Origin: Tractidigestivibacter scatoligenes
Lineage (GTDB): Bacteria; Actinomycetota; Coriobacteriia; Coriobacteriales; Atopobiaceae
Assembly (NCBI RefSeq): GCF_001494635.1
Contig: NZ_LOJF01000001.1
Coordinates: 620,001-684,000, forward strand
DNA: 64,000 bases
Reading direction: 5' to 3'
The translations under genes were made by a program, and so were the position numbers. Below, in pieces: positions 11,275 through 60,949 of this stretch. The notes beneath the pieces were generated by a model that worked only from the letters and a program-made list of their open reading frames with translations, had not been told where the DNA came from and did no database searches. Position 1 is the stretch's first letter. Each line of letters opens with the position of its first letter.

Positions 11275-12600
11275 GTGTCTGTACTCGAGATGGTCCGCGA
11301 GGAGGAAGCGCGGAGAGGGACTGCCACAACGGAGGGACGCGACCTTCGCCAGCAGCGGCTGAGCCTCAAGAACGCCCTGGTGGAGCGGTTGGGGCTTGCG
11401 ACCATTGCCTCGATGCTCTCTGCGGGCGATGCCACCCAGGCGCGCTCGGCACTTGCCGTGACGTGCAACGCAATCATAAACACTGGGGGCTACGAGGGCC
11501 TTTCGCGCGAGGACGTGGCGCGTCTCGTGCGCCAGGTGACGGACGAGATTTGCGGTCTTGGCCCCATCCAGCCACTTCTCGAGGACGAGGATGTCTCTGA
11601 GATTATGATCAACGGCTGCGATGCGCTCTTCTATGAGCGTGGGGGCGAGGTCTTCTCGGCACCAGCGGTGTTTGACTCACCCGAGCAGATCATGATCGTG
11701 ATCGACCGAATTCTGGCACCCCTTGGGCGAAGGCTCGACAGGAGCTGCCCCATTGTGAACGCGCGCCTTGCCAACGGCGACCGCGTGAACGCCGTGGCGG
11801 ACCCGGTTGCCATAGGCGGGCCGGTGGTCACCATCAGGCGATTCTCCAACCGCATCACGTCGCTGGGCACGCTGGTCGAGCTGGGCTCGCTGCCTGAATG
11901 GTACGCGCAGCTGCTGCGCTGGGCTGTGAGGACGCGAAAGGGGATAGCAGTAGCCGGAGGCACCGGGTCGGGCAAGACCACGCTCCTCAACGCGCTCTCG
12001 TGCGAGATTGACCCCGGCGAAAGGATTGTGACCATAGAGGACTCCGCCGAGCTGCGCTTTGATGCGCATCCGGACGTGGTGAGCCTTGAGGCAAGGGGCG
12101 CCTCGATTGAGGGGTCCGGCGAGGTCACGATTCGCGACCTGGTCAAGAACTCGCTGCGCATGCGGCCGGACCGCATTGTGGTGGGGGAGGTTCGCGGCGA
12201 GGAGTGCATCGACATGCTGGCCGCAATGACGACCGGACACGACGGCTCGATGACCACGCTGCACGCGGGCACCGCCGAGGAGGCCGTGCTTCGCCTGGTG
12301 CTCATGGCGCGCTTTGGGATGGACCTGCCCGCCGACATCATCGAGGAGCAGATTGCCTCGGCGCTCGACCTCATCGTGATGTCGCGGCGTGCGCCGGATG
12401 GGTCGCGCTACATCACTACGACGCATGAGGTTGGGTGGTCGAGAGGGGCAAAGTCGGTGGACCTCGTCGAGTGCGTATCGTTTGACGTGGCAGAGCGCTC
12501 CTGGAAGCTCGTCCGCGAGCCGGCGTTTGTGGCACAGGCGGTGTGCGACGGGATTCTCGACGAAGGCGAGGTGGAGCGATGGAGGTCTTCCTTCCGCTGA
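11275..12600 (+). CDS. tadA: Tad pilus assembly ATPase TadA/CpaF
   Basis: A 441-residue secretion ATPase of the VirB11/GspE superfamily that powers Flp pilus extension. Visible are the Walker A GGTGSGKTT (228-236), the Walker B/His-box region RPDRIVVGEVRGEE and the arginine-rich N-terminal domain. GTG at 11275 follows the tadZ TAG with no gap, implying translational coupling. The last 22 bases overlap tadB. Confidence 0.95.
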   Translation: MSVLEMVREEEARRGTATTEGRDLRQQRLSLKNALVERLGLATIASMLSAGDATQARSALAVTCNAIINTGGYEGLSREDVARLVRQVTDEICGLGPIQPLLEDEDVSEIMINGCDALFYERGGEVFSAPAVFDSPEQIMIVIDRILAPLGRRLDRSCPIVNARLANGDRVNAVADPVAIGGPVVTIRRFSNRITSLGTLVELGSLPEWYAQLLRWAVRTRKGIAVAGGTGSGKTTLLNALSCEIDPGERIVTIEDSAELRFDAHPDVVSLEARGASIEGSGEVTIRDLVKNSLRMRPDRIVVGEVRGEECIDMLAAMTTGHDGSMTTLHAGTAEEAVLRLVLMARFGMDLPADIIEEQIASALDLIVMSRRAPDGSRYITTTHEVGWSRGAKSVDLVECVSFDVAERSWKLVREPAFVAQAVCDGILDEGEVERWRSSFR

Positions 12601-19251: not shown

Positions 19252-21261
19252 ATGAGTAACCGGCACCCCGCCGGCGTCCTTAGGCGCCGTAGGCCTGCGC
19301 TTCTCGTGCTTCCGCTCCTGGTCATGCTCTTTGCTCTTGTCCTTGGCGTCACTCCCGCACATGCGGATGACTACAGCATGGACCAGACGGACATCGACGC
19401 GACGCTGGACACGTCGGGTGGTCTTACCGTGACCGAAGTGCGAACATTCGACTTCAGCGGGGACTTCCATGGCGTCTACTGGGAGATTCCCAAGGGGGAG
19501 AACAGCTCCAACGGGCGCACGGTGAGCGTCCAAGTGCTGGATGCTGGCATTGTCGAGAACGGCAACGCCCGCTCCTTCACGGAGTCCAACTCTGGCGCCA
19601 ACGAGACCTACTCCATCACAGACGAGGGTTCCTATCTGCAAATCAAGCTCTACTCTGCCCAAAGTGACACAACGGTGCAGTTCTACGTGTCCTATTTTGC
19701 CGATGGGATAGCCACGCGTTGGTCGGACACGGGCGAGCTGTACTGGAAGTTTGTCTCTGACGGCTGGGATGCCGAGTCGCAAAACGTCACCTGCACCATC
19801 CACTTGCCCGTTCCGAGCGGAGAGTCCGTGGCGGGTGGTGACAACGTGCGGGCCTGGGGCCACGGCCCCCTGGATGCGAGCCTTGCATTCGACGGAAACG
19901 ACGTGGTCTATTCCGTGCCGGGCGTCGGCACCAGCGAGTATGCCGAGGCGCGCATCACTTTCCCGGCAAGCTGGATCTCCGATTGCCCAGAGACCTCGGG
20001 TACGGTGCTCAGTTCCATCTTTGCGGAGGAGCAGAAGAACGCCGATGACGCAAACGCGCGTCGCGCCGCGGCACGCGCGGCCGTGTATGGGGTCACAGGG
20101 TTCTGCCTTGCCGTTGCCGTGGCGACCATCGTTGCAACCGCCATCGCAAAGCGTCGCTACAAGGCCTCGCACACTGCGCAGTTTGACGACAAGTACTTCC
20201 GCGATGTGCCCACGGGCGACCACCCAGTTGTTCTCGCTATGCTCGCCACCGGCGAGGACCCCGGCTCCGACGGTCTCACCGCCTCGCTCATGCGCCTTAC
20301 CGACGAGCACGCCGTGCAGCTTGACAAGGTCAAGGTGAGTAAGAAGAAGATGCTCGGTTCCAAGCAGTTCGACGACTACCGCGCGTCAATCGTGGGACCA
20401 ATTCCCCAGGGGACCTTTGGCACGCCCGCGGAGTGCAAGTCCGCCAAGCGCGCGGATGAGGCTGCCGTGGAATTCCTCTTCCACCGCGTTGCGCGTAGGA
20501 TACAGGCGCCTAACGATCTCTCGTACACCGGAAGCGAGCCTGCCCTGTACTTCTCGGCCATCAAGAAGTACGCAAAGTCCTCGCCAGAGGCGTACTCGGA
20601 CGCCTACGAGTCCTGGCAGTCCTCGATCAGGGTTGAGTACCTCAAGCGCTTCGCAGGCAACGGCTCTCTCAAGGGGACGGGTCATGGGCTTGCCGTTGGG
20701 CTTAGTGCGTTCTCCATCCTTGCGGCATTCCTGGAGCTGTTCGTTGTTGGCATCATGTTCGAGGCCGACATCCTTCTCGCACTTGGCGTCACCGCGGTCT
20801 GCGGCGCAAGCGGTGGTATCTCGCTGTTCCTGCTCAGTGACAGGTTCTTCAAGGACATTAGTGTCGAGGGGGTCGAGACAAAGGCCAAGGTCCTGGCCCT
20901 CAAGCGCTGGCTCCAGGAGTTCACCCGCCTGGACGAGGCGGTGCCGAGCGACGTTATCCTCTGGAACCGCCTGCTGGTGATGGCGGTGGCGCTCGGCGTT
21001 GCGGACAAGGTCATCGAGCAACTCAAGGTTGCCATGCCGGAGCTCATCGACGATCCGGACTTTATGCCGATTTACTACTGGTACTACATCGGCCAGCCGG
21101 GTGTGGGCTCTCCCGCAGATGTCTTCAGCGGTGCTATCCACGATGCTTCTGTGGCTGCGATTGCCAACTCGGTCGACGCAAGCGGCAGCGGCGGGGGAGG
21201 CGGCTTCTCCTCTGGCGGAGGGGGCGGCTTTGGCGGTGGCGGAGGCGGCGGCGCGTTCTAG
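19252..21261 (+). CDS. DUF2207 family membrane protein
   Basis: A 669-residue protein with a signal peptide ending at AHA-DD (about residue 35) and an extracellular domain of about 240 residues rich in polar strands. A membrane helix follows at about 280-300, then a cytosolic region and two more helices near 485-530. The C-terminus is a Gly-rich tail (GGGGGF repeats, then AF). This is the layout of YciQ-like DUF2207 proteins, whose function is unknown. ATG at 19252 follows TGGGGGATTCT. It is 73 bp from the Tad operon with no terminator between, so read-through is possible. Confidence 0.88.
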   Translation: MSNRHPAGVLRRRRPALLVLPLLVMLFALVLGVTPAHADDYSMDQTDIDATLDTSGGLTVTEVRTFDFSGDFHGVYWEIPKGENSSNGRTVSVQVLDAGIVENGNARSFTESNSGANETYSITDEGSYLQIKLYSAQSDTTVQFYVSYFADGIATRWSDTGELYWKFVSDGWDAESQNVTCTIHLPVPSGESVAGGDNVRAWGHGPLDASLAFDGNDVVYSVPGVGTSEYAEARITFPASWISDCPETSGTVLSSIFAEEQKNADDANARRAAARAAVYGVTGFCLAVAVATIVATAIAKRRYKASHTAQFDDKYFRDVPTGDHPVVLAMLATGEDPGSDGLTASLMRLTDEHAVQLDKVKVSKKKMLGSKQFDDYRASIVGPIPQGTFGTPAECKSAKRADEAAVEFLFHRVARRIQAPNDLSYTGSEPALYFSAIKKYAKSSPEAYSDAYESWQSSIRVEYLKRFAGNGSLKGTGHGLAVGLSAFSILAAFLELFVVGIMFEADILLALGVTAVCGASGGISLFLLSDRFFKDISVEGVETKAKVLALKRWLQEFTRLDEAVPSDVILWNRLLVMAVALGVADKVIEQLKVAMPELIDDPDFMPIYYWYYIGQPGVGSPADVFSGAIHDASVAAIANSVDASGSGGGGGFSSGGGGGFGGGGGGGAF

Positions 21262-27668: not shown

Positions 27669-27694
27669 GCGCCGTGCCTCTCGCTAACGTTTGC

Positions 27695-27723
27695 CGGGCC
27701 GCACCGCGGCCCGTTACCATTTT
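27695..27723 (+). terminator. Probable terminator after degV
   Basis: CGGGCCGC (27695-27702) pairs with GCGGCCCG (27706-27713) around ACC and is followed by TTACCATTTT. It lies only 13 bp before the next start codon, so attenuation of that gene is also possible. Confidence 0.55.
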
Positions 27724-27735
27724 AGGGGGTCTGCG

Positions 27736-29700
27736 ATGAGCTGGACACGTAGGGAATTCCTCGAGCTTGCATCGGCTGGTGCCGCAAGCATGGGCCTTGC
27801 CGCCTGCAGCGCGCCCGCGCGACAGCAGACCGACAATACCTCCGATCAGCCCGCAGAGACCACCACGCAGCCCACCGAAAACGTGGATCTTGGCGAGTTC
27901 AAGAGCCTGACGCTCGACACCAACGCCTGGAAGTACGACGCCGACAACGACGTCTACTACCAGCTGGGCCTTACCTACTGCCTGAAGCCCGCCACGACGG
28001 CCTACGAGTCCCTGGCGGTCTTTGTCCCCGGCAAGTTCTTCACGGCTGAGAAGAAAGGCGACACCTACTCCTGCACGGTGAACGAGAAGGCCGTGGTGGG
28101 CGGCTTCACGCCGTCCACGGCGCCCGTCCTTCTGCCCATCAACAGCGGCACGCTCTCACCGCAGGCGAGCCCCACGAAGTACGGCTACGACGGCCTGGGC
28201 ACCTTCCTCGATGCTGGCTGCGTCTACGTGTACGCAGGCTTCCGCGGCAGGAGCGCTGGCTATGACTCCTCGACCGGCTCCACCGACCTCTACCCTGGTG
28301 GCGCTCCCTGGCCCGTGGTCGACCTCAAGGCGGCCATTCGCTACCTCCGCTACAACAAGGACGCGCTTCCCTGCGACACCTCGAGGGTCTTCTCGTTTGG
28401 TTTCTCTGCGGGTGGCGGCGTGAGCGCGCTGCTCGGCTCTGCTGGAGATGCCGAGATCTATAAGCCCTATCTGGACTCCATTGGCGCCATCACGCACGAT
28501 GCCGAGGGCAACGCCGTCTCGGACGCCGTCTTTGGCAGCGCGTCGTGGTGCCCCGTCACCTCCTTCGACACCGCCGACGCGTCCTACGAGTGGATGATGG
28601 GGCAGTTCTCGACGGCTGGAAATCGCGCGGATGGCACGTGGACGGCCTCGCTCTCGCAGGGCTTGGCCACAGACTACGCGAGCTACATCAATGCGATGGA
28701 CTTGCGCGACTCCGATGACTCCCAGCTCACGCTCGACGAGTCCGAAGGCAGCGTCTACACGCTTGGCTCCTACGCAAGCCAGCTCCTCTCGATTCTCGAC
28801 GAGTCTGCCACCAACTTTGTCGCCGACACCACGTTCCCGTACACGTACACGCCTCAGCACATGGACGACCCAAGCTTCCCCGGTGACCCAAACCTTGCGA
28901 CCAACCGCGCGACCGAGGCTGCCGTGGCTGCTGCCAAGCAGGAGGCGCAGTCCTCTGCTGCTGCGGACGCCCAGGGAGACGGCACGAGCACGGATGCCAC
29001 GGGTTCGGCTGACGCTGCCGCAACGACCACCACGACGCTCCCCACGGGCACCACACAGGTGCAGTCCACCATCTATGACACCGTGCAGAACTACTTCGCG
29101 GCGCTCAACTCCGACTACTGGTGGATCAACTACAACGTGAGTCGCCAGACGGTCTCCATCTCGAGCCTGCGTGACTTCTCGACGCACCTGCGTCCCGCCG
29201 AGCTCTCGGTTCCCGCCTTTGATGCTGCCGATCGTTCCACGAAGACCAACCAGCTCTTTGGCATTGGCGAGGAGAGCACCCTGCACTTTGACGAGACGGT
29301 TGGCAATCGTGTGGCGGCAAACGCCGACGCCTATGCCTCGCTTGAGGGCTGGGACGAGTCCTACGCCACGGCATGGCAGGACGACCTCGAGAAGACCGAC
29401 TCTCTCGACACCGACATCCCCACGCGCGTCTCCATGGTCAACCCGCTCTACTTCCTGAGCGGTACCTACGGCGGCTATGGCACTGGTTCTGTGGCACCGC
29501 ACTGGCGCGTGAACGAGGGCGTTTTTGACACTTCGACCTCGCTCGCCACCTCGGCCAACCTGGTGCTGGCGCTGCGCCACTTCAGCGGCGTCGAGGACGT
29601 CGCCTACGAACCCGTGTGGGGCCAGGGCCACGTGATGGCGGAGCGCTCGGGCACCGCGAGCGACAACCTCCTCTCCTGGATCGCCTCCTGCTGCGAATGA
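27736..29700 (+). CDS. Tat-exported lipoprotein, alpha/beta-hydrolase (esterase/tannase-like)
   Basis: A 654-residue extracytoplasmic protein. The N-terminus has a twin-arginine motif (R5-R6-E-F-L) and a lipobox LAAC with C24. A hydrolase core follows with GFRGRSAGYDS, WPVVDLKAAIRYLRYN and the nucleophile elbow GFSAGG (S224). The insert at about 380-450 is Ala/Thr-rich and low complexity. The C-terminal GQGHVMAE may supply the catalytic His. Similar proteins are annotated as esterases or subtype B tannases; the substrate is unknown. Its TGA stop is part of a 29-bp palindrome. Confidence 0.78.
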   Translation: MSWTRREFLELASAGAASMGLAACSAPARQQTDNTSDQPAETTTQPTENVDLGEFKSLTLDTNAWKYDADNDVYYQLGLTYCLKPATTAYESLAVFVPGKFFTAEKKGDTYSCTVNEKAVVGGFTPSTAPVLLPINSGTLSPQASPTKYGYDGLGTFLDAGCVYVYAGFRGRSAGYDSSTGSTDLYPGGAPWPVVDLKAAIRYLRYNKDALPCDTSRVFSFGFSAGGGVSALLGSAGDAEIYKPYLDSIGAITHDAEGNAVSDAVFGSASWCPVTSFDTADASYEWMMGQFSTAGNRADGTWTASLSQGLATDYASYINAMDLRDSDDSQLTLDESEGSVYTLGSYASQLLSILDESATNFVADTTFPYTYTPQHMDDPSFPGDPNLATNRATEAAVAAAKQEAQSSAAADAQGDGTSTDATGSADAAATTTTTLPTGTTQVQSTIYDTVQNYFAALNSDYWWINYNVSRQTVSISSLRDFSTHLRPAELSVPAFDAADRSTKTNQLFGIGEESTLHFDETVGNRVAANADAYASLEGWDESYATAWQDDLEKTDSLDTDIPTRVSMVNPLYFLSGTYGGYGTGSVAPHWRVNEGVFDTSTSLATSANLVLALRHFSGVEDVAYEPVWGQGHVMAERSGTASDNLLSWIASCCE

Positions 29701-29726
29701 GACAAAGGGACAGTCCCTTTGTCTCA
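29698..29726. repeat. 29-bp palindrome, copy 1 (supplies a stop codon)
   Basis: TGAGACAAAGGGAC and its exact reverse complement flank a central A. The first three bases are the stop codon of the esterase gene. Related 29-bp copies are at 42940, 47317 and 60921. RNA from it would form a strong hairpin and may act as a terminator or stabiliser. Confidence 0.9.
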
Positions 29727-29737
29727 TGGAGTGGAAT

Positions 29738-30469
29738 ATGACTGACGAGAACAACGTACGTACGGCATACGCGGCCATCACAAGGCGCGGCTTCATGGGC
29801 CTGGCGCTTGCTGCGGCGTCCTTCTCGCTTGCCGCCTGCGGAGCCTCATCCAGCGCGAGCGGAGAGGGGAGCGCAAGCACCTCCTCGTCCTCCTCGGACA
29901 CGTCGTCTGACTCCTCGACGATCAGCGATGCTACGGACACCAGTGACCAGCCCACGGGCCCCTACGCCTCGGGCGTCCACCATGCTACCATCGAGGTCAC
30001 GGACTACGGCACCATCTCGGTTGCCTTGAACGCCAACGTCGCCCCTATCACCGTGTCCAACTTTGCCGACTTGGTCGAGCAGGGCTTCTACAACGGGCTC
30101 ACCTTCCACCGCGTGGTGAAGGACTTCATGATTCAGGGCGGTGACCCCAACGGCGACGGCACCGGCGGCTCCGACACCACCATCAAGGGCGAGTTCTCGG
30201 CCAACGGGGTGAAGAACGACATTGCCCACGTGCGCGGCACCATCTCGATGGCACGCTCGTCGGACTACAACTCGGCCAGCTCGCAGTTCTTCATCGTCCA
30301 GAAGACGGCGGCCTCGCTCAACGGCCGGTACGCCGCCTTTGGCAACGTGACGGACGGCATGGACGTGGTCGATGCCATCGTGGACGCAACGGCCGACAAG
30401 GGCGATTCCAACGGGATCCTCCCCAAGGAGGACCAGCCCGTCATTGCCTCCATCACGATGGTCGACTAG
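29738..30469 (+). CDS. Tat-exported cyclophilin-type peptidyl-prolyl isomerase lipoprotein
   Basis: A 243-residue protein. A Tat-like R16-R17-G-F and lipobox LAAC (C34) are followed by a Ser/Asp-rich spacer and a cyclophilin domain (about 83-243). VSNFADLVEQGFYNGLTFHRVVKDFMIQGGDP and SASSQFFIV are the usual active-site segments. It should assist folding at the outer face of the membrane. ATG 29738 sits behind GGAGTGGAAT; ATG 29726 lies inside the palindrome and has no ribosome site. Confidence 0.93.
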   Translation: MTDENNVRTAYAAITRRGFMGLALAAASFSLAACGASSSASGEGSASTSSSSSDTSSDSSTISDATDTSDQPTGPYASGVHHATIEVTDYGTISVALNANVAPITVSNFADLVEQGFYNGLTFHRVVKDFMIQGGDPNGDGTGGSDTTIKGEFSANGVKNDIAHVRGTISMARSSDYNSASSQFFIVQKTAASLNGRYAAFGNVTDGMDVVDAIVDATADKGDSNGILPKEDQPVIASITMVD

Positions 30470-41343: not shown

Positions 41344-41424
41344 TAGAATAGTGCATGTTGTCGCTTTTCTCGGCTGGGTGGTCTTGTGCAACTTGGTCGA
41401 GGCTCTACAAGGGAAGGGGTTCTT

Positions 41425-42942
41425 ATGGCAGACGAGAACACGCAGGCGCCTCAGACGGCGCCCGCCCCGGAGACGTCGCGCCGCCCATACGAGGGCGTGC
41501 CCGCAAACGTGGTGAGGAGCGTGCCCAACCCGGCGAGCGCGCGCCTCTCGTGGACTGACGGCGAGAGGACCATCGACTACGTGTCCACGGCCGCCCACCT
41601 CGACGTCCGTGACGACTCGGGGCGCCTTGAGGGCAAGATGTTCTCGCTCTCCTACGTGGCGGTGGACGCGGAGGGCCAGCCCAACGCCACCCGCCCGGTG
41701 ACCTTTGCCTACAACGGCGGACCGGGCTCGGCTTCGGTGCCTATCAACTTCGGCGGCATTGGGCCCCGCCGCGTTGAGACCGACGGCACCAACCACCTGG
41801 CGGCATCCGCGCGGGTGGCCGACAACCCCCATACGCTGCTCAAGGACTCTGACCTCGTGTTTCTCGACGCCCTAGGTACCGGCTGGTCCGTGGTGGCTGA
41901 CGATTGCGACCCCGCGACGGTCTTCTCGGTCGACGGCGACGCGGACGCCTTTGCCCGTGCGATCATGGACTGGCTCGAGAAGAACCACCGCTGGTCAAGC
42001 CCCATCTACCTCTATGGTGAGTCCTACGGCACCTTTAGGAACGCCGTGCTCATGAGGCTCCTGGGCGAGAGGTCCGTCAAGCTCACCGGCGTGGTGATGC
42101 TCTCGGCCATCTGGGACTGGGTGCAGACGCTTCCCGGCGAGGACCTCTACTACCTGGGCATGATGCCCACCTACGCGGCTGCGGCGCAGTTCTTTGGCCG
42201 CACGGGCGAGGGCGTGGACCCCGACGAGTGGTTTGACCGCGCGATGGACTTTGCCGACGAGACGCTGGCACCGGCGCTTCTCCGCGGCGACCGCCTGGGC
42301 GCGGAACGCGAGTGCGACGTGGCGCGCGAGCTCTCGCAGTTCGTGGGTCTGCCCGTCGACTTCCTTGCGCGTCACCACCTGCGCGTGGAGCTCACGGAGT
42401 TTCGCCGCGAGCTGTTGCGCGACGAGGGACGCGTGTGCGGCCGCCTGGATATGCGCTTCTGCTCGGACGAGCCGTCGCCCATGCAGGCAAGCCTCGACTG
42501 GCTGGGCGGCGAGGATGCCGCTGACGACGCCGTGGAGGCCAACTGGACCAACGCCTTCCGCGCGTTCTGCGCGGACGAGCTGGGCTACCAGGGCCCCTCG
42601 GTTTACCTGGGGCAGAACTGGGAGCGCGTGGGCCACAAGTGGATTTGGCAGCACGAGGTTCCCGGTACGGGCGAGAAGGTCGGCGCGCCCAACGTGACCG
42701 GCGACGTCGCGCTTGCGCTGCGCCGCAACCCCACCATGAAGCTTGCCATCATCGGCGGTCGCTATGATGCGGCGACCACGTTCTGGAACGTGCGCCACGA
42801 CCTGAGCTGCCAGTTCCTCTCGCCCGCGCTCAAGGAGCGCGTGACTTGGCTGCGCTACGGCTGCGGCCACATGGCATACGTGGACGAGCCTACGCTGGCC
42901 GCCATGGACCGCGACATCCACGACTTCTACCAGAAGGCATGA
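41425..42942 (+). CDS. Serine carboxypeptidase-like protein (peptidase S10)
   Basis: A 505-residue alpha/beta-hydrolase with the S10 catalytic triad: S200 in GESYG, D448 in GGRYD and H482 in GCGHM. FAYNGGPGSASVPINFGGIGP is the S10 oxyanion and substrate region. There is no signal peptide, so it is cytoplasmic, unlike the vacuolar enzymes of eukaryotes. The ATG at 41425 follows AAGGGAAGGGG. It stands alone. Its stop TGA is provided by a 29-bp palindrome. Confidence 0.9.
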   Translation: MADENTQAPQTAPAPETSRRPYEGVPANVVRSVPNPASARLSWTDGERTIDYVSTAAHLDVRDDSGRLEGKMFSLSYVAVDAEGQPNATRPVTFAYNGGPGSASVPINFGGIGPRRVETDGTNHLAASARVADNPHTLLKDSDLVFLDALGTGWSVVADDCDPATVFSVDGDADAFARAIMDWLEKNHRWSSPIYLYGESYGTFRNAVLMRLLGERSVKLTGVVMLSAIWDWVQTLPGEDLYYLGMMPTYAAAAQFFGRTGEGVDPDEWFDRAMDFADETLAPALLRGDRLGAERECDVARELSQFVGLPVDFLARHHLRVELTEFRRELLRDEGRVCGRLDMRFCSDEPSPMQASLDWLGGEDAADDAVEANWTNAFRAFCADELGYQGPSVYLGQNWERVGHKWIWQHEVPGTGEKVGAPNVTGDVALALRRNPTMKLAIIGGRYDAATTFWNVRHDLSCQFLSPALKERVTWLRYGCGHMAYVDEPTLAAMDRDIHDFYQKA

Positions 42943-42968
42943 GACAGAGGGACAGTCCCTTTGTCTCA
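42940..42968. repeat. 29-bp palindrome, copy 2 (supplies a stop codon)
   Basis: TGAGACAGAGGGAC, a central A, then GTCCCTTTGTCTCA: one mismatch between arms. The first three bases are the stop codon of the S10 peptidase gene. Confidence 0.9.
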
Positions 42969-42970
42969 AT

Positions 42971-43008
42971 GAGGAGGCCGGCTCCTGCGCAAGGGGGTCG
43001 GCCTCCTC
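42971..43008. terminator. Hairpin between convergent genes
   Basis: GAGGAGGCCG (42971-42980) and CGGCCTCCTC (42999-43008) form a perfect 10-bp stem. There is no long U-tract on either strand, so termination strength is uncertain. Confidence 0.5.
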
Positions 43009-43022
43009 GCTAGGCACGGCGC

Positions 43023-45323
43023 CTAGAAGCCCAGCTCGCGCGCCGTGATGCCATCCTCTCGGCGCGTCACCAGGTACGCGTGGTGGATCTTGGGGTTGCG
43101 CGAGAAGTCCTCGGGGATGGTCTTGGCGGTGATGTCTTCGAGCTCCACGCCGGCCTTCTCGAGGGTCTCGACGTCTGGCTTGAAGCTCCGCAGGTTGCAC
43201 GAGAAGATCGCGCAGCCGCCGCGCGAGAGCAACCTGGATACAGAGATGATGAGGTCCGCGTGGTCGCGTTGCACGTCCCACGAGCTGGAGTGCATGCGGT
43301 TTGAGTTGGAGAACGTAGGAACGTCGCAGAAGATGAGGTCCCAGGTGTAGCGGTGCTCGTGGCGGCGGTCAGCCACCCACTGCAGCACGTCTGCCTGGAT
43401 GAACTCGTGGTTGCGGCCGACAAACCCGTTGCGCTCCATGTTGCGGTGCGCCCAGTCGAGCGACGGCCGGGAGAGGTCTACCGTGGTGGTGAGCCCCGCG
43501 CCGCCGTCCGCCGCGTAGCAGCTTGCCGTGCCGGTGTAGGCAAAGAGGTTGAGGAAGCTTCCGCCCGGCGTGCGCTTCATGAGCTCGCGCAGCATGGAGC
43601 GGGTCTCGCGGTGGTCGAGGAAGAGCCCGCAGTCAAGGCGCTCGGAGAAGTTGACCTCAAAGGTGAGGCCGCCCTCGTCCACGAGGTGCGCGCCGCGGGG
43701 TAGCTCCACGCGCCCGTCCCGCCTGCGCGCGGGGCGCTCGTCGCGCGCCGCTGGGCCGCGTCCCTCTCGCCCGCCGTCCGCGTACTGCGAGCCGCCGCGG
43801 GCCCGTGTGCGCACGCGCACGTGCACGTTGGCGGGATCCACGTCCAGTACGCGTGGCGCGATGGCCAGCACGTCGAGAAGGCGCCTGCGCGCAAGCCCCG
43901 CGTCCACGTCGCGCGGCGCGGCGTACTCGGAGACGTAGAGCCAGCGGCCCGGCGTGGCCGAGCCACGGAAGAGGTCGATTGAGACGGCGTAGTCCGGCAG
44001 GTCCGCGTCGTAGACGCGGTAGCAGCTCACGTCCTCGCGCGCCGCCCACTTGGCGCGGAGCTTGGCCACCTTGGCGAGGCGCGCGGCAAACTGGTCCGAC
44101 GCCCCCACCAGCACGGGAACGCTGCCCGCGTCTCCGCGCAGCTGCACCATCGGGTGCTCTGCCGAGAGGGACATGGGGTCGTAGCAGCGGATGGTTGCGT
44201 CGTCGCGGCCCAAGATCACGGGGATCGCCTCCGCGGGCTCGCCGCCTGCGGCCGCGTCCGCCGCGTCGTCGGGGGAGAGCGCTACCACGCCGGCGCCCTC
44301 GTGCCCCGCCACGGCTCCAGCCCCTGCCGAGAAGAGCGAGAGCGCCTCGGCCTCGCTGGCAAGGTCGTCCGGCTGCGGCCACGCGAGGTCTGCCACCAGG
44401 AGCGGCGAGCCGTCGACCACGGCGGCCGCAAGTTCGCCTGCGGCGAGGAAGCGCGACTCCACGTCCATGCCAGCGGCGCGAAGAGCCCTTCTCGCCGCGC
44501 CCTCCGCGCCTGGCCGCGTGTCGCAGAGCAGAAGCTCCACGCTGTTCTCGGCGCCCGCTGCCGCGCGGTCTGCGGCTTCTGTGGCAAGCGCGTCCCAGGC
44601 CTCGGCGTCGTGGCCGGCCCAGTGCGCAAATCCCCAGCGTGTGCGCAGCAGCCCCGGCGCGCGGTCGAGCGCCTGGCTCGCCGCCTCCACGGCCACGCTG
44701 CCGGTGCCGGAGAAGAGGTCTACCAGCACGGGCGAGCCGTGTCGCACGTCGCGGAACCAGCAGCCGGCCTCCAGAAGCGCCGCTGCGTAATCCGCCCGGC
44801 GCGGAGCAAGGCGCCCGCGACCCAGGGGCGCCTCCCAGCCGCGGTTGAAGAGCGGCTCTCCCGTGAGGTCTATGCCCACGAGCGCGCGCTCGCGCGAGAG
44901 GCGCACCACAATGCCCACGTCCGGCATGTCCGTGTTCACCAGGGGCCGAGCGCCCCGGCGCGAGAGAAGCCTGTCTGCCACGGCGTCCTTCGAGCGCAGG
45001 GCCACAAACTGCGTGTTTCTCAGCTGGTCGTTGGTGCCGCGCGCCTCGATGGCCATGGTTGCGCCTGGTGCCACGTGGTCTTCCCAGGGGATGGCCGAGA
45101 GGCCCTCGTAGAGCTGGTCCGCATTGGCCGCCCCCACGCGCGCCAGCACGAGCGTCACGTTTGATGCCAGGCGCGACCACAGGCAGCAGCGGTAGGCGTC
45201 CGCAAGGCCTCCCGTGAACGAGACCTGGCCCACAAGCGGGCGCACTCCCTCGGCGCCAAGCGCGTGCAGCTCTCCTGCCAGCAGAGACTCGAAGCCCTTG
45301 GGGCATGTTGCGACAAACTCCAT
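43023..45323 (-). CDS. rlmL: RlmKL-like bifunctional 23S rRNA methyltransferase
   Basis: A 766-residue fusion. The N-terminal half has FVATCPKGFESLLAGEL, a THUMP region (about 45-155) and a methyltransferase domain with VDLFSGTGSVAVEAA. The C-terminal half has NLFAYTGTASCYAADGG and the RlmK-type CDVPTFSNSNRM. The family makes m2G2445 and m7G2069. In the RlmL half the expected NPPY catalytic motif is not visible; the equivalent position reads VADLAWPQPDD, so that activity is doubtful. ATG 45323 follows GAAAGGTGTCCCG. Confidence 0.85.
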   Translation of the reverse strand: MEFVATCPKGFESLLAGELHALGAEGVRPLVGQVSFTGGLADAYRCCLWSRLASNVTLVLARVGAANADQLYEGLSAIPWEDHVAPGATMAIEARGTNDQLRNTQFVALRSKDAVADRLLSRRGARPLVNTDMPDVGIVVRLSRERALVGIDLTGEPLFNRGWEAPLGRGRLAPRRADYAAALLEAGCWFRDVRHGSPVLVDLFSGTGSVAVEAASQALDRAPGLLRTRWGFAHWAGHDAEAWDALATEAADRAAAGAENSVELLLCDTRPGAEGAARRALRAAGMDVESRFLAAGELAAAVVDGSPLLVADLAWPQPDDLASEAEALSLFSAGAGAVAGHEGAGVVALSPDDAADAAAGGEPAEAIPVILGRDDATIRCYDPMSLSAEHPMVQLRGDAGSVPVLVGASDQFAARLAKVAKLRAKWAAREDVSCYRVYDADLPDYAVSIDLFRGSATPGRWLYVSEYAAPRDVDAGLARRRLLDVLAIAPRVLDVDPANVHVRVRTRARGGSQYADGGREGRGPAARDERPARRRDGRVELPRGAHLVDEGGLTFEVNFSERLDCGLFLDHRETRSMLRELMKRTPGGSFLNLFAYTGTASCYAADGGAGLTTTVDLSRPSLDWAHRNMERNGFVGRNHEFIQADVLQWVADRRHEHRYTWDLIFCDVPTFSNSNRMHSSSWDVQRDHADLIISVSRLLSRGGCAIFSCNLRSFKPDVETLEKAGVELEDITAKTIPEDFSRNPKIHHAYLVTRREDGITARELGF

Positions 45324-45594
45324 CGGGACACCTTTCGCCCGTGACCTGCGCGCCAGTCGGCGCGCCCAGCGGCGCCCACGCGCCGAGAAAACCATTGCGA
45401 CCATGATACGTGTGCCGGCCTCGCGCGGCGGACGGCGCCCGACCATCCGCTCACAGCTCCACAAAGTCGTTCGTCCGCATGAGCGCCCCGCGCCGCGCCG
45501 TCACGGATAGAATCTAAGGTGCATTGTTCGTGCTTGTTCGTAGACAGCCGCAGCGCACCACGCGTGTTCGTGCGGCGGGAAGCAAGGGGGAACC

Positions 45595-47319
45595 ATGGAC
45601 GCAGGCGTGAAGGAAACCATCAAGCTTTGGCAGGACAACGTCAACGAGCCAGACCTCAAGGCCGAGCTTGACGCCCTTGTCAGCGCTGGCGATGAGGATG
45701 CGCTCAACGACGCCTTCTATCGCACGCTCGAGTTTGGCACTGCGGGCCTGCGCGGCACGCTCGGCGTGGGCACCAACCGCATGAACGTCTACGTGGTTGC
45801 CCAGGCAACCCAGGGCGTGGCCAACTACTTGAACGCCCACTATGACCACCCCACCATTGCCATCGCGCGCGATTCTCGCCTCAAGGGCGAGGACTTCCAG
45901 CGCGTGGCGGCCGGCGTCCTTGCTGCCAACGGCGTGCACGTCTACGTCTACCCGCGCATCGAGCCCGTCCCCACGCTCTCCTTTGCGGTGCGTTACCTGC
46001 ACACCTCCGCGGGCATCGTGCTTACGGCGTCGCACAACCCGGCACAGTACAACGGCTACAAGGTCTACAACGACAACGGCGGCCAGATCGCCAACGAGGC
46101 CGCGGATGAGATCAGCGCCTCCATTGCCCAGACGCCCGTCTTTGGCGGCGTTAAGATGATGGACTTCGACGAGGGCCTCAAGCAGGGCCTCATCGAGTGG
46201 ACGCCCGAGGAGGTTCTCGACGCCTTCATCGACGCCGTCAAGAAGGTCTCGGTCCCCGGCTTCAAGGCGCCCGAGGGCTACAAGGTTGTCTACACTCCGC
46301 TCAACGGCACCGGCATGGAGTGCGTCACGCGCATCCTCAAGGAGATTGGCGTGAACGACGTCACCGTTGTGCCCGAGCAGGCCAACCCCGACGGCAACTT
46401 CCCCACGTGCAAGTACCCCAACCCCGAGTTCCGCGAGGCGCTGCAGCTGGCGCTCGACCTTGCCGAGAAGGTCAAGCCCAACCTGGTCGTGGCTACTGAT
46501 CCTGACGCTGACCGCATGGGCACCGCCATTCCGCACAACGGCGAGTACAAGCTGCTCACCGGCAACGAGATGGGCGTCCTCATGATGGACTGGCTCATCA
46601 AGATGGCAATCGACCGCGGCGAGGACCCCAAGCGCAAGGTCGCCGTGTCCACGATCGTCTCGTCCGTGATGCCTGACGCCCTGGCCAAGCACTACGGCTT
46701 TGAGATGCGCCGCGTGCTCACCGGCTTCAAGTACATTGGCGACCAGATCGACCAGCTCAAGGACGAGGGCGAGGAGGACCGCTTCCTCATGGGCTTCGAG
46801 GAGTCCTACGGCTACCTCGTGGGCACGCACGCGCGCGACAAGGACGCCATTGTGGCCGTGGAGATGTGCGTCGAGATGGCGGCGTACTACGCCGAGCGTG
46901 GCATGGACCTCTACGAAGCCATGGAGGAGCTCTACAAGCAGTATGGCTATTACCTCAACGGCACCGTGAACGCGCAGTTCCCGGGCGAGGCCGGTGCCAA
47001 GCGCATGGCGCAGATCATGACCGACCTGCGCGAGAAGCCCCTCACCGAGATCGCTGGCTACAAGGTCGTGGGCATGACCGACTTTGGCAAAGGCGCCGAG
47101 ATGCCGCGCGTCTCCGGCCTGCAGAAGGAGCCCGCGCAGGAGCTGCCGGCTGCTAACGTGATCGAGTATCGCCTGGAGGACGACAACAAGGTGATCTTCC
47201 GTCCGTCTGGCACCGAGCCCAAGGTCAAGGCATACCTGTTCGCCAAGGGCGCCACGCGCGCCGAGGCTGAGGCCGTGCGCGCCAAGCTGCAGGCTGCCGC
47301 CGAGAAGGCCCTCTCGTGA
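45595..47319 (+). CDS. pgm: Phosphoglucomutase/phosphomannomutase family enzyme
   Basis: A 574-residue alpha-D-phosphohexomutase. The active-site phosphoserine is S146 in TASHNP, the Mg loop is DPDADR (302-307), the sugar loop is GFEESYGY, and the C-terminal phosphate-binding loop is RPSGTEPK. The length and N-terminus fit the PgcA/Pgm2 type that interconverts glucose 1- and 6-phosphate. The start follows AAGGGGGAACC. Its TGA belongs to a 29-bp palindrome. Confidence 0.94.
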   Translation: MDAGVKETIKLWQDNVNEPDLKAELDALVSAGDEDALNDAFYRTLEFGTAGLRGTLGVGTNRMNVYVVAQATQGVANYLNAHYDHPTIAIARDSRLKGEDFQRVAAGVLAANGVHVYVYPRIEPVPTLSFAVRYLHTSAGIVLTASHNPAQYNGYKVYNDNGGQIANEAADEISASIAQTPVFGGVKMMDFDEGLKQGLIEWTPEEVLDAFIDAVKKVSVPGFKAPEGYKVVYTPLNGTGMECVTRILKEIGVNDVTVVPEQANPDGNFPTCKYPNPEFREALQLALDLAEKVKPNLVVATDPDADRMGTAIPHNGEYKLLTGNEMGVLMMDWLIKMAIDRGEDPKRKVAVSTIVSSVMPDALAKHYGFEMRRVLTGFKYIGDQIDQLKDEGEEDRFLMGFEESYGYLVGTHARDKDAIVAVEMCVEMAAYYAERGMDLYEAMEELYKQYGYYLNGTVNAQFPGEAGAKRMAQIMTDLREKPLTEIAGYKVVGMTDFGKGAEMPRVSGLQKEPAQELPAANVIEYRLEDDNKVIFRPSGTEPKVKAYLFAKGATRAEAEAVRAKLQAAAEKALS

Positions 47320-47345
47320 GACAAAGGGAGTTTCCCCTTGTCTCA
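47317..47345. repeat. 29-bp palindrome, copy 3 (supplies a stop codon)
   Basis: TGAGACAAAGGGAG, then TTT, then CCCCTTGTCTCA. The arms are less perfect than in other copies. The first three bases are the pgm stop codon. A separate terminator follows at 47360. Confidence 0.85.
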
Positions 47346-47359
47346 TTAGAAGTTTGATG

Positions 47360-47389
47360 AAGCCCCGGCGCTTGTGCGTCGGGGCTTTT
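47360..47389 (+). terminator. Terminator of pgm
   Basis: AAGCCCCG (47360-47367) pairs with CGGGGCTT (47380-47387), with an inner GCGC/TGCG pairing and TTTTC behind. Confidence 0.8.
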
Positions 47390-47404
47390 CGTTGTGTTTG
47401 TCGG

Positions 47405-48193
47405 CTAGCCCGCGAGGTGCTCGCGCACGCGTGCGAGCTGCAACTTGGTGACGCCGCAGGAAAGAAGGTACGCCCCAATCGAGCCGTAGCTCTCAAGCAG
47501 GCCGTCGTACACGCGGCCCATGAGCTTGGCCAGCACGTCCACGGTGGTGAAGCTGGGAGATACGCCCCGGTAGATGTAGGCGTCGACCTCCTCGCGCGAG
47601 GCAAACGAGTAGGTGTAGTCCGCCACGATGCTCGTGCGGTCCACTCCGCACAGGCCTAGAAGCAGCATCGACGTGATGCCGGTGCGATCCATCCCGGCTG
47701 CGCAGTGGTAGAGCACGCACTCCTCGGGTGCCGCATCGGCAAAGGCTGAGAAGATCTGGCGCATGGCCTCGTGGTTGTCGAGCATCCTGAGATAGCCGGA
47801 GGCGAGGTAGTCGCGCGCGTCTCCGGGAAGGTGCAGCCTGGGGTCGTGCAGGTTGACGCCAAAGAGCGGCACGTTTGTGTAGGTGACACCGGGGTAGGAG
47901 GCAAAGACGTCCGGCGAGCTTGCGCACTCCTGCGTGCTTCTCAGGTCAACCACCCGCGTGACGCCGTATTCGCGCAGGTAGTGGGCCTCCTTGCGCGAGA
48001 GCGTCGAGGTGGAGCCAGAGCGCAGGAAGCGATGGGTGAGCGTGGTTGCGCCGGCAGCGCGGCCGGGGCCCGTGGGCAGGGGATAGCCGCCTAGGTCGCG
48101 GCAGTTGTCGCCCACGGGAAGGAGCTGCCCGCCGTTGGTGGGTTTCTGCCCAGCAGCGCTCCCGTTGCCTTGCTTGCGGAACCAGCCCAGCAT
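47405..48193 (-). CDS. Tyrosine/serine phosphatase (Tyr_phosphatase3-like)
   Basis: A 262-residue protein phosphatase of the PTP fold. The P-loop is HCAAGMDRTG, with C164 and R170 (CX5R); NCRDLGGYP and RSGSTSTLSRKEAHYL are typical of the MptpB/Tyr_phosphatase3 group, which can act on phosphoproteins or phosphoinositides. There is no signal peptide. It lies 13 bp after the small gene 48207-48497, so they form an operon. Confidence 0.88.
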   Translation of the reverse strand: MLGWFRKQGNGSAAGQKPTNGGQLLPVGDNCRDLGGYPLPTGPGRAAGATTLTHRFLRSGSTSTLSRKEAHYLREYGVTRVVDLRSTQECASSPDVFASYPGVTYTNVPLFGVNLHDPRLHLPGDARDYLASGYLRMLDNHEAMRQIFSAFADAAPEECVLYHCAAGMDRTGITSMLLLGLCGVDRTSIVADYTYSFASREEVDAYIYRGVSPSFTTVDVLAKLMGRVYDGLLESYGSIGAYLLSCGVTKLQLARVREHLAG

Positions 48194-58342: not shown

Positions 58343-60904
58343 ATGCCCTCTGACCAGCAGTTCTCGTTCTTCTCCGCAGCTAGCGACCAGCAGGCGCCCG
58401 CCGTCCAGCCCGCCGCGTCCGGTGCCGTCCAGCCGCCTGCCGCCAATCGCCCCTCCGCCGTTGACATCGACGGCCTCAACCGCGCGCAGCGCGACGCCGT
58501 GCTCTGCACGCACGGCCCGCTCTTGGTGCTTGCCGGCGCGGGCTCGGGCAAGACGCGCGTGCTCACGTACCGCATCGCGCACATGGTCGCCGACGAGGGC
58601 GTGCGCCCGTGGCAGGTGCTCGCCATTACGTTCACCAACAAGGCGGCGGCCGAGATGCGCGAGCGTCTCAACGCGCTTCTCCCCGGTGGCACCCGCGGCA
58701 TGTGGGTGTGCACCTTCCACGCCATGTGCGTTCGCATGCTGCGAGACGACCCTGAGCTGGTGGGCTACCAGCCAAACTTCACCATCTACGACGATGATGA
58801 CTCGAAGCGCCTGGTCAAGACCATCATGTCCGAGCTCGACGTGGACCCCAAGCAGTTCCCCATCCAGGCTATCCGCTCGCAGATCTCGGGCGCCAAGAAC
58901 GCGCTCGTCTCGCCCGATGAGATGCAAGGCCAGGCCCAGACGCCGCTGGAGCGCAAGGCGGCGCAGGTCTACCGCGTGCTGCAGGGCCGCCTGGAGCGCG
59001 CCAACGCCATGGACTTCGACGACCTCCTGGTAAAGGCCTTCGAGCTTCTCGCCAAGAACCCGCAGGTACTCGACGCTTACCAGGAGCGCTTCCGCCAGAT
59101 CAGCGTGGACGAGTACCAGGACACCAACGGCGTCCAGTACGCCATCACCAACCTTTTGGCTCGCAAGTACAGAAACCTCATGGTCGTGGGCGACGACGAC
59201 CAGTCCATCTACTCCTGGCGCGGCGCGGACATCAAGAACATTCTCTCCTTCGAGAAGGACTATCCCGACGCCCACGTGGTCAAGCTCGAGCAGAACTACC
59301 GCTCCACCGGCCACATCCTCAACGCGGCCAACGCCGTGGTGGCCCACAACTCGCACCGCAAGGCCAAGCGCCTCTTCACCGACGCGGGCGATGGCGAGAA
59401 GATCCGCGTGTACCAGGCCGCGGACGAGCGCGACGAGGGCCGCTGGATTGGCTCGGAGATCGAGAAGCTGCACGACAAGGGCACCAGTTACGACGACGTT
59501 GCCGTCTTCTACCGCACCAACGCGCAGTCGCGCATCCTCGAAGACATGTTCCTGCGCGCCGGTGTGCCCTACAAGATCGTGGGTGGCACACGCTTCTTCG
59601 ACCGCCAGGAGGTCCGCGACGTAATGGCCTACCTCAAGGTCGTCGTGAACCCGGATGACGACGTGGCCGCGCTGCGTGTGGTCAACACGCCGCGCCGCGG
59701 CATTGGCTCCACGTCCATCAACAAGATTCGCACGTACGCCGCCGAGAACCGCATCTCGTTCTTTGCCGCGTGCGAGGCGTGCATTGCCGAGCAGGGCCTG
59801 CTCTCGCCCAAGGTGCGCAACGCCCTCTCCGAGTTCACGGGTACCATCGAGGCCGGCCGCCACATGACGGGCGAGCTCTCGGACGTAGTGGAGGCCATCA
59901 TCGATCGCTCCGGCCTCATCCGCGCCCTGGAAGCCGAGCACTCCGTCGAGGCAGACAGCCGCATCGAGAACATCAAGGAGTTCTACGGCGTCGCGGCCGA
60001 GTTCGACGAGACCCACGATGACGCAGCCGAGACGCTCGAGAGCCTGGAGCAGCTCCGGGCGGCGGGACTGGCGGACAGCTCGGCTTCCCCCAGCGGCGAT
60101 TTCGTGAGCGAAGCGAGCGAGCGAGCGTCGTCAGACGCGAGCGCTGAGCCGCAGGGGGATGCCGGGCTGCCCGCCGTTGCGGCGGAGAAGCTTCCGGCGC
60201 TCATGGAGTGGCTCGCGCTGCGCTCGGACCTGGACTCGCTTGCGGGCTCGGCGAGCGCCGTCACCATGATGACCGTGCACTCGGCGAAGGGCCTGGAGTT
60301 CCCGGTGGTCTTCGTTGCCGGCATGGAGGAGGGAATCTTTCCGCACTCGGCGCACGAGGGCGACCCGGCGTCGATCGAGGAGGAGCGCCGCCTGGCGTAC
60401 GTGGCCATCACGCGCGCCCGCAAGCGGCTCTACCTCACCTACGCCCTCACGCGCCGCACCTTTGGCTCGGTGCAGGCAAACCCGCGCAGCCGCTTTGTGA
60501 ACGAGATTCCCGCGGCAGACGTTGAGGCCGTGGGCGTGGGTTCGTCGGGCTTCTCGGGTGTGGGCTGGGAGAAGCGCGGAGACAGGCACGGCACCTTTGG
60601 CAGCGGGCGCGGTTCCGAGGTCTATGGTGGCCACGTCTTTGGCTCGCGCACGCGCTCGACGGGCGGCTCTGTCGCCCCAAGCGCCGTGGCCTCCGCGCCC
60701 CTGCCGCGCCCGCAGGCCCCGCGCCGCGATGCGGCGAAGGCGGCGGAGTCCTTCTCGGCAGGAGATCACGTCTCGCACAAGACCTTTGGTCCCGGCGTGG
60801 TCATCGCCGCCAAGGGCGACACCATTGAGGTGCGCTTCTCTCGCACGGGCAAGACCAAGAAGCTCATGAAGGGCTTTGCGCCCATCGTGAAGATTGAGGG
60901 GTAA
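58343..60904 (+). CDS. pcrA: UvrD/PcrA-family DNA helicase
   Basis: An 853-residue superfamily 1 helicase for repair and replication restart. Motifs in order are GAGSGKT (65-71), TFTNKAAAEM, VDEYQDTN, DDDQSIYSWRGAD, QNYRST and TVHSAKGLEFPVVFVAGMEEG. The C-terminus (VSHKTFGPGVVIAAKGDTIEVRF) is the PcrA Tudor-like RNAP-contact domain. A Ser/Ala-rich insertion (about 570-605) is encoded partly by GCGA repeats. The start follows CAGGAGACATGC. Confidence 0.95.
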   Translation: MPSDQQFSFFSAASDQQAPAVQPAASGAVQPPAANRPSAVDIDGLNRAQRDAVLCTHGPLLVLAGAGSGKTRVLTYRIAHMVADEGVRPWQVLAITFTNKAAAEMRERLNALLPGGTRGMWVCTFHAMCVRMLRDDPELVGYQPNFTIYDDDDSKRLVKTIMSELDVDPKQFPIQAIRSQISGAKNALVSPDEMQGQAQTPLERKAAQVYRVLQGRLERANAMDFDDLLVKAFELLAKNPQVLDAYQERFRQISVDEYQDTNGVQYAITNLLARKYRNLMVVGDDDQSIYSWRGADIKNILSFEKDYPDAHVVKLEQNYRSTGHILNAANAVVAHNSHRKAKRLFTDAGDGEKIRVYQAADERDEGRWIGSEIEKLHDKGTSYDDVAVFYRTNAQSRILEDMFLRAGVPYKIVGGTRFFDRQEVRDVMAYLKVVVNPDDDVAALRVVNTPRRGIGSTSINKIRTYAAENRISFFAACEACIAEQGLLSPKVRNALSEFTGTIEAGRHMTGELSDVVEAIIDRSGLIRALEAEHSVEADSRIENIKEFYGVAAEFDETHDDAAETLESLEQLRAAGLADSSASPSGDFVSEASERASSDASAEPQGDAGLPAVAAEKLPALMEWLALRSDLDSLAGSASAVTMMTVHSAKGLEFPVVFVAGMEEGIFPHSAHEGDPASIEEERRLAYVAITRARKRLYLTYALTRRTFGSVQANPRSRFVNEIPAADVEAVGVGSSGFSGVGWEKRGDRHGTFGSGRGSEVYGGHVFGSRTRSTGGSVAPSAVASAPLPRPQAPRRDAAKAAESFSAGDHVSHKTFGPGVVIAAKGDTIEVRFSRTGKTKKLMKGFAPIVKIEG

Positions 60905-60920: not shown

Positions 60921-60949
60921 TGAGACAAAGGGAAACTCCCTTTGTCTCA
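60921..60949. repeat. 29-bp palindrome, copy 4
   Basis: TGAGACAAAGGGA, loop AAC, TCCCTTTGTCTCA: perfect arms, extended outside by CCCGA/TCGGG with a one-base bulge. It starts 16 bp past the pcrA stop (TAA), so here the TGA is not the gene stop. Confidence 0.9.

Follow-up and report, generated by a model that had tools for sequence, protein, structure and literature searches.

TGAG-tagged REP palindromes and the stop codons of Tractidigestivibacter

A 29-bp palindrome, TGAGACAAAGGG-N5-CCCTTTGTCTCA, that recurs throughout the genome of Tractidigestivibacter scatoligenes provides the TGA stop codon of many of the genes that it adjoins, and a strong excess of copies is found exactly at stop codons among the sites sampled. 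The palindromes are very probably REP elements of a RAYT/REP (REPtron-type) system, spread by the RAYT transposase, which have taken over stop codons and have since been kept while their loops were exchanged between copies.

Palindromes in the window

The window, that is, the whole stretch of 64,000 nucleotides that was analysed (G000:C1:620001-684000), belongs to a genome (G000) of 2.47 Mb that is 99.9% complete. It contains four palindromes of 29 bp, all given here on the forward strand, as an earlier note on this DNA had described, and their sequences are not identical. The copies at 29698..29726 (loop ACAGT) and 60921..60949 (loop AAACT) have perfect arms, and one arm change each is present at 42940..42968 (loop ACAGT, left arm TGAGACAGAGGG) and 47317..47345 (loop AGTTT, right arm CCCCTTGTCTCA). 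The placement relative to genes that had been claimed for them, with the TGA serving as stop codon in three copies and the fourth lying 16 bp past a TAA, also holds, and the four upstream ORFs, which likewise run on the forward strand, all match Pfam families. The first copy ends a gene for a 669-aa protein matching BD-FAE hydrolase (27691..29700, stop at 29698-29700), the second one for a 518-aa protein matching peptidase S10 (41386..42942, stop at 42940-42942), and the third one for a 574-aa protein matching phosphoglucomutase/phosphomannomutase (45595..47319, stop at 47317-47319). The fourth copy follows, after the 16-bp gap, the TAA of a gene for an 853-aa protein matching UvrD/PcrA helicase (58343..60904).

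With up to two mismatches allowed, the single 12-nt arm is matched 10 times in the window, where chance would give 3.8. Two lone arm-like matches, each with two mismatches and without a partner arm, are located at 12087-12098 and 20874-20885, their count being at chance level, and another palindrome copy (G000:C1:619933-619961) lies just outside the window, ending 40 bp ahead of position 1. The sole match in an Rfam scan of the window was a tRNA.

Distribution in the genus and family

The paired, spaced form occurs in 99 copies in the G000 genome (up to one mismatch) against none for a reversed-pattern control, so the window palindromes are not chance occurrences. All eight Tractidigestivibacter genomes (Atopobiaceae, Coriobacteriia) carry the palindrome, with 17-105 copies each. 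Among 132 other genomes of the family that were searched, ten have 1-6 copies and the remainder none.

The transposase gene

A REP-type transposase gene, for which the earlier note had suggested a search, is present in the genome. The one PF01797 gene of G000 (G000:C12:88826-89581, 252 aa) scores 42.3 bits against a cut-off of 23, and its translation contains NHVHLLV and YIHNNP, read by eye as the HUH motif and the catalytic Tyr. This gene is bounded by two exact palindrome copies in inverted orientation, and the same arrangement is found in the four congeners that have an orthologue (87-89% identity). A single-copy gene of this kind alongside 99 palindromes is the pattern of RAYT/TnpAREP systems, and the system is a RAYT/REP system with a TGAG tag instead of GTAG. 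The sole NCBIfam match to the protein, NF047646 (REP_Tyr_transpos), reaches 61 bits and thereby stays below its cut-off of 80, and a PDB sequence search found no relative of it. Two congeners lacking an orthologous RAYT still hold 67-78 copies of the palindrome, which indicates that copies persist without it.

A second RAYT (37-39% identity) is encoded in the genus by G001, G002, G004, G005 and G007 (L037-L041), and in several of these genomes it is flanked by a different palindrome (TCCCCGGCAATGG..., TTACCTGGCAACGG...). In Olsenella-like genomes, RAYTs of 49-50% identity are bounded by TGATTCAAAAGGGGACAGACCCCTTTTGAATCA. A matching perfect hairpin pair within 500 bp was detected for eight of 47 more distant RAYTs examined, most being without one.

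Excess at stop codons

Gene ends were sampled in stretches around palindrome sites of G000 and its sister species G001, later stretches being chosen by synteny; the sample was drawn around palindromes and covers most of the G000 copies. In 55 of 391 gene ends, which are our own calls by a simple codon-usage score and not curated annotation, the TGA of the palindrome is the exact stop. Offset 0 accounts for 55 gene ends, compared with a mean of 0.78 at each of the positions 1-60 nt downstream. With looser criteria, 67 gene ends at 155 sites are counted, so that about 40% of the sites supply a TGA stop in the two species sampled, and at eight sites both of two convergent genes are terminated by one palindrome. 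Since the two genomes share ancestry, counts across both are not independent and a Poisson figure for the excess is descriptive only. In the sampled sites, the count of copies at stop codons that the earlier note had proposed bears out its observation.

At gene ends of the sample without a palindrome, the stops are TAG in 202, TAA in 47 and TGA in 38 cases, TGA thus being the rarest stop elsewhere. The dominance of TAG at these ends (202/287, G000 and G001 sample) is unexpected for a GC-rich genome. A mutated copy (L064) is still read on one side as a stop, in this case TAA.

The sole independent replicate of the excess comes from a second palindrome family in the Olsenella-like genus g34. This family (TGATTC...GAATCA) is 33 bp long, begins with TGA, differs in its arms from the TGAG palindrome and reaches 72 copies per genome (up to two mismatches). 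It stands on both sides of the RAYTs of 49-50% identity mentioned above, and 24 of the 52 sites sampled are stop codons, with one read-through.

Homologous sites without the palindrome

Empty sites, at which a homologous gene end lacks the palindrome, do exist in congeners, where the earlier note had advised looking for them; the stop there mostly occupies the same codon, as TAG. The distant congener G006 has TAG at the same codon and no palindrome in its homologues of 47317, L045 and L129, and its homologue of 60921 also has no palindrome. Among eight such empty cases in G006, three proteins are exactly equal in length to their counterparts, two differ by one residue and two others align poorly; 62 of 79 control genes of G006 are equal in length to their homologues. 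The protein at L009 ends six residues short of its G006 homologue.

At 42940, the window reads gca|TGA-palindrome where G005 (98.8% identical upstream) and G002 read gca|TAG without a palindrome, and the bases after the stop have been replaced, not pushed aside, relative to these two genomes. Either TAG or the TGA-palindrome may be the older state at this site. Four states are found across the genus at L129 (TGA-REP; TAG followed by the REP; TAG with 9-10 nt and then the REP; TAG without a REP), and the distance of one and the same REP from the stop at L129 and L098 is 0, 3 or 12-14 nt, depending on the species, from which it follows that these junctions were reshaped afterwards. The alignments indicate a stop that stays in place and a repeat whose junction with it varies.

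In L141, L153, L154, L178, L318 and L330, one arm has its outer 10-11 nt duplicated in tandem (TGAGACAAAG-TGAGACAAAGGG...). In these copies, which come from several species, the first TGA stays the stop and the hairpin moves 10-11 nt downstream.

Age of the sites and exchange between copies

Most sites are common to the sister species G001, in a sample with some bias, many of the G001 stretches having been chosen around that genome's own copies, and shared sites are inherited rather than freshly inserted. Plain vertical descent, which the earlier note had set against its own reading, accordingly accounts for many single sites but leaves the excess at stop codons unexplained.

Across 30 orthologous pairs, divergence is 2.8% in the arms, compared with 11% in the 30 nt upstream. 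The loops of twelve of these pairs have switched, six being inverted and six of another type, and this switching is read as exchange between copies (concerted evolution). As loops are exchanged between copies, conservation of the arms alone is not evidence of function. Movement of copies is supported indirectly, by the empty homologous sites together with the switches of loop type.

One locus differs among the genomes by a segment of about 2 kb between two palindrome copies, which is present in G001, G003 and G005 and in G001 includes a 622-aa ORF with no Pfam match. The window genome and G002 have one copy and no segment at this locus; G004, likewise without the segment, has two copies separated by 52 bp (window 29690-29741; L178:2410-4606; L175:16626-18787; L177:1720-3753; L176:1958-2071). 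The absence of the segment looks like deletion by recombination between REPs.

Origin of the palindromes at stop codons

The RAYT of G000 or an ancestor of it most likely carried the hairpin (A)TGAGACAAAGGG-N5-CCCTTTGTCTCA(T) into intergenic positions, for the most part at the 3′ ends of genes, a role suggested by the flanked gene and the number of copies. Because both outer ends of the hairpin read TGA from the outside in, a copy abutting an ORF in the right frame would act as its stop. Such a copy would replace an older TAG or TAA, usually with the protein unaltered, and would then be kept since the gene needs its stop, while the interior of the repeat would be refreshed by exchange between copies. 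We infer in particular that the RAYT moved the copies, that the change at most sites was in the direction just given, and that selection rather than insertion specificity holds the copies at stops.

Several observations fit this RAYT/REP explanation less well. Current mobility is unsupported, given that two congeners without an orthologue keep their copies and that the sister species has most of the sites too; the repeat carries TGAG in place of a GT(A/G)G tag, and the NCBIfam score lies below the cut-off. A retention ratchet would predict better conservation of stop-supplying copies in G006, and this was not seen there, the numbers being small. Moreover, random insertion and selection alone leave the exactness of the junction unaccounted for. 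The exact junction may result from a preference of the enzyme for R-T, from later reshaping with selection for an unchanged protein, or from both.

An enzymatic preference is the substance of one alternative, which we regard as rather unlikely. It supposes that the RAYT attaches the REP strand by its 5′ end behind a purine-T dinucleotide, with a preference on the sense strand for the R-T within R-TAG or R-TAA stop codons, which would make the excess a property of the enzyme. In 258 of 262 arms TGA follows a purine, and at stop sites the final wobble position holds A in 38, G in 17 and C or T in no case, as opposed to G 145, C 103, A 26 and T 13 in controls, so that a pyrimidine is found at 0/55 stop sites versus 116/287 controls. 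Protein ends are mostly preserved, and the loop has a polarity relative to the gene, with ACAG on the sense strand in 31:10 of the single-stop sites (both related genomes together; G000 by itself 14:5, p = 0.06) and a ratio of 19:3 (p = 0.0009) in the TGATTC...GAATCA family. However, if a REP were inserted cleanly behind the R-T of TAG, AG or AA would remain to its right, where the flank is almost always a pyrimidine; the replacement of the bases following 42940 is not what insertion would give either, and the variable spacing at L129 and L098 implies reshaping after arrival. The insertion with strong target preference that the earlier note had put forward is hence possible, but with most sites shared with the sister species later reshaping and selection could also yield the excess. 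A stronger form of the idea, in which the RAYT recognises gene ends and performs a protein-preserving stop swap on the sense strand (R-TAG to R-TGA plus hairpin), appears unlikely; if true, REP spread in Coriobacteriia would systematically rewrite stops and put a hairpin at the terminating ribosome.

Also unlikely is a function at the mRNA level, in which a hairpin at the stop would slow the terminating ribosome or protect the 3′ end and position 0 would be kept for that purpose. The window copies are predicted to fold as strong RNA hairpins (-17.6 to -22.8 kcal/mol, z -4.9 to -6.7), and E. coli REPs within 15 nt of the stop have been reported to stall ribosomes and lower translation (PMC12306157). 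Against this, the conservation of the arms is explicable by the same exchange that affects the loops, and the arm duplications displace the hairpin by 10-11 nt in several species.

A combined stop codon and intrinsic terminator copied between gene ends, as the earlier note had also envisaged, is highly improbable. The stop-codon part of that proposal stands, and the location at gene ends, at times between convergent genes, and the strong hairpin are in its favour, but the palindrome is not an intrinsic terminator. No T-run follows any of the window copies (copies 2 and 3 by terminator scan and fold, copies 1 and 4 by their flanks), and a terminator scan of 42800-47500 did not flag the palindromes at 42940 and 47317. 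The scan found instead a separate terminator-like hairpin with a T-rich tail on the forward strand at 47359..47388, 13 bp past copy 3, which means that the palindrome need not be a terminator, and at 29698 the next gene runs in the same direction.

There is equally little to recommend a truncation artefact, by which copies would insert anywhere near gene ends and only those in frame be counted at position 0, for although L009 is shorter than its G006 homologue, roughly double the number of read-throughs would be expected in the two remaining frames, where they are seen at only 2/131 sites, and most well-aligned empty homologues are equal in length. Random insertion with truncation is likewise disfavoured as a general account, the empty homologues mostly ending at the same codon. 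Insertion into a pre-existing TGA is unlikely, TGA being the rarest stop and most aligned empty homologues having TAG, and insertion just before an old stop that was left on the right was rejected, as the flanks, inspected by eye, seldom have TAG or TAA immediately to the right of the palindrome.

Comparison with known REP systems

RAYTs flanked by inverted REPs have been described previously (PMC2817692). TnpAREP cleaves at CT or CA, with the GTAG tag helping to choose the site (PMC8266576), and GTAG REPs often supply the TAG stop of flanking ORFs (PMC3733652). The central phenomenon is therefore known in kind. The present system resembles the GTAG REPs with RAYT/TnpAREP of Stenotrophomonas, Pseudomonas and E. 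coli (PMC2817692, PMC8266576, PMC3733652) in having a single-copy Y1/HUH gene between two inverted REPs and REPs that number from tens to hundreds and lie mainly at the 3′ ends of genes, and in a tag that contains a stop trinucleotide, although GTAG gives TAG and the TGAG palindrome gives TGA. It differs in that the tag lies inside the palindrome and both ends carry it, which is why one copy can end both of two convergent genes, in its origin from Actinomycetota (Coriobacteriia), and in a RAYT below the NCBIfam cut-off. A GT(A/G)G head is absent next to the palindrome, the consensus being A/G-TGAGACAAAGGG, for which reason the repeat is classed here with the REP-type repeats of RAYT systems and not with the GTAG REPs. 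The CGTC-tagged REPs (PMC3733652) are similarly short palindromic repeats near gene 3′ ends but have a different tag; no CGTC is present at the end of the palindrome, which places it outside that super-family. The TGATTC...GAATCA family of g34 shares the pattern of flanking a RAYT and starting with TGA, and differs in arms, length and genus. E. coli REPs close to stop codons (Liang et al. 2015, cited in PMC12306157) likewise place a hairpin by the stop, but there the REP follows the stop, whereas here the stem begins with it.

As far as literature searches show, what is new is a tag, TGAG, that yields TGA and can serve two convergent genes at once, the two REP families of Coriobacteriia, the comparison of stop positions with and without a copy, and the quantification. 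REP-flanked RAYTs are thereby documented in gut Actinomycetota, where the occupied and empty sites offer a tractable set for the question of how REPs spread, and a testable account is provided of how mobile palindromes could become hard to lose, namely by taking over an essential triplet at gene ends. A REP end with a well-placed stop trinucleotide looks like a repeated theme, with TAG in the GTAG REPs and TGA in the two REP families considered here.
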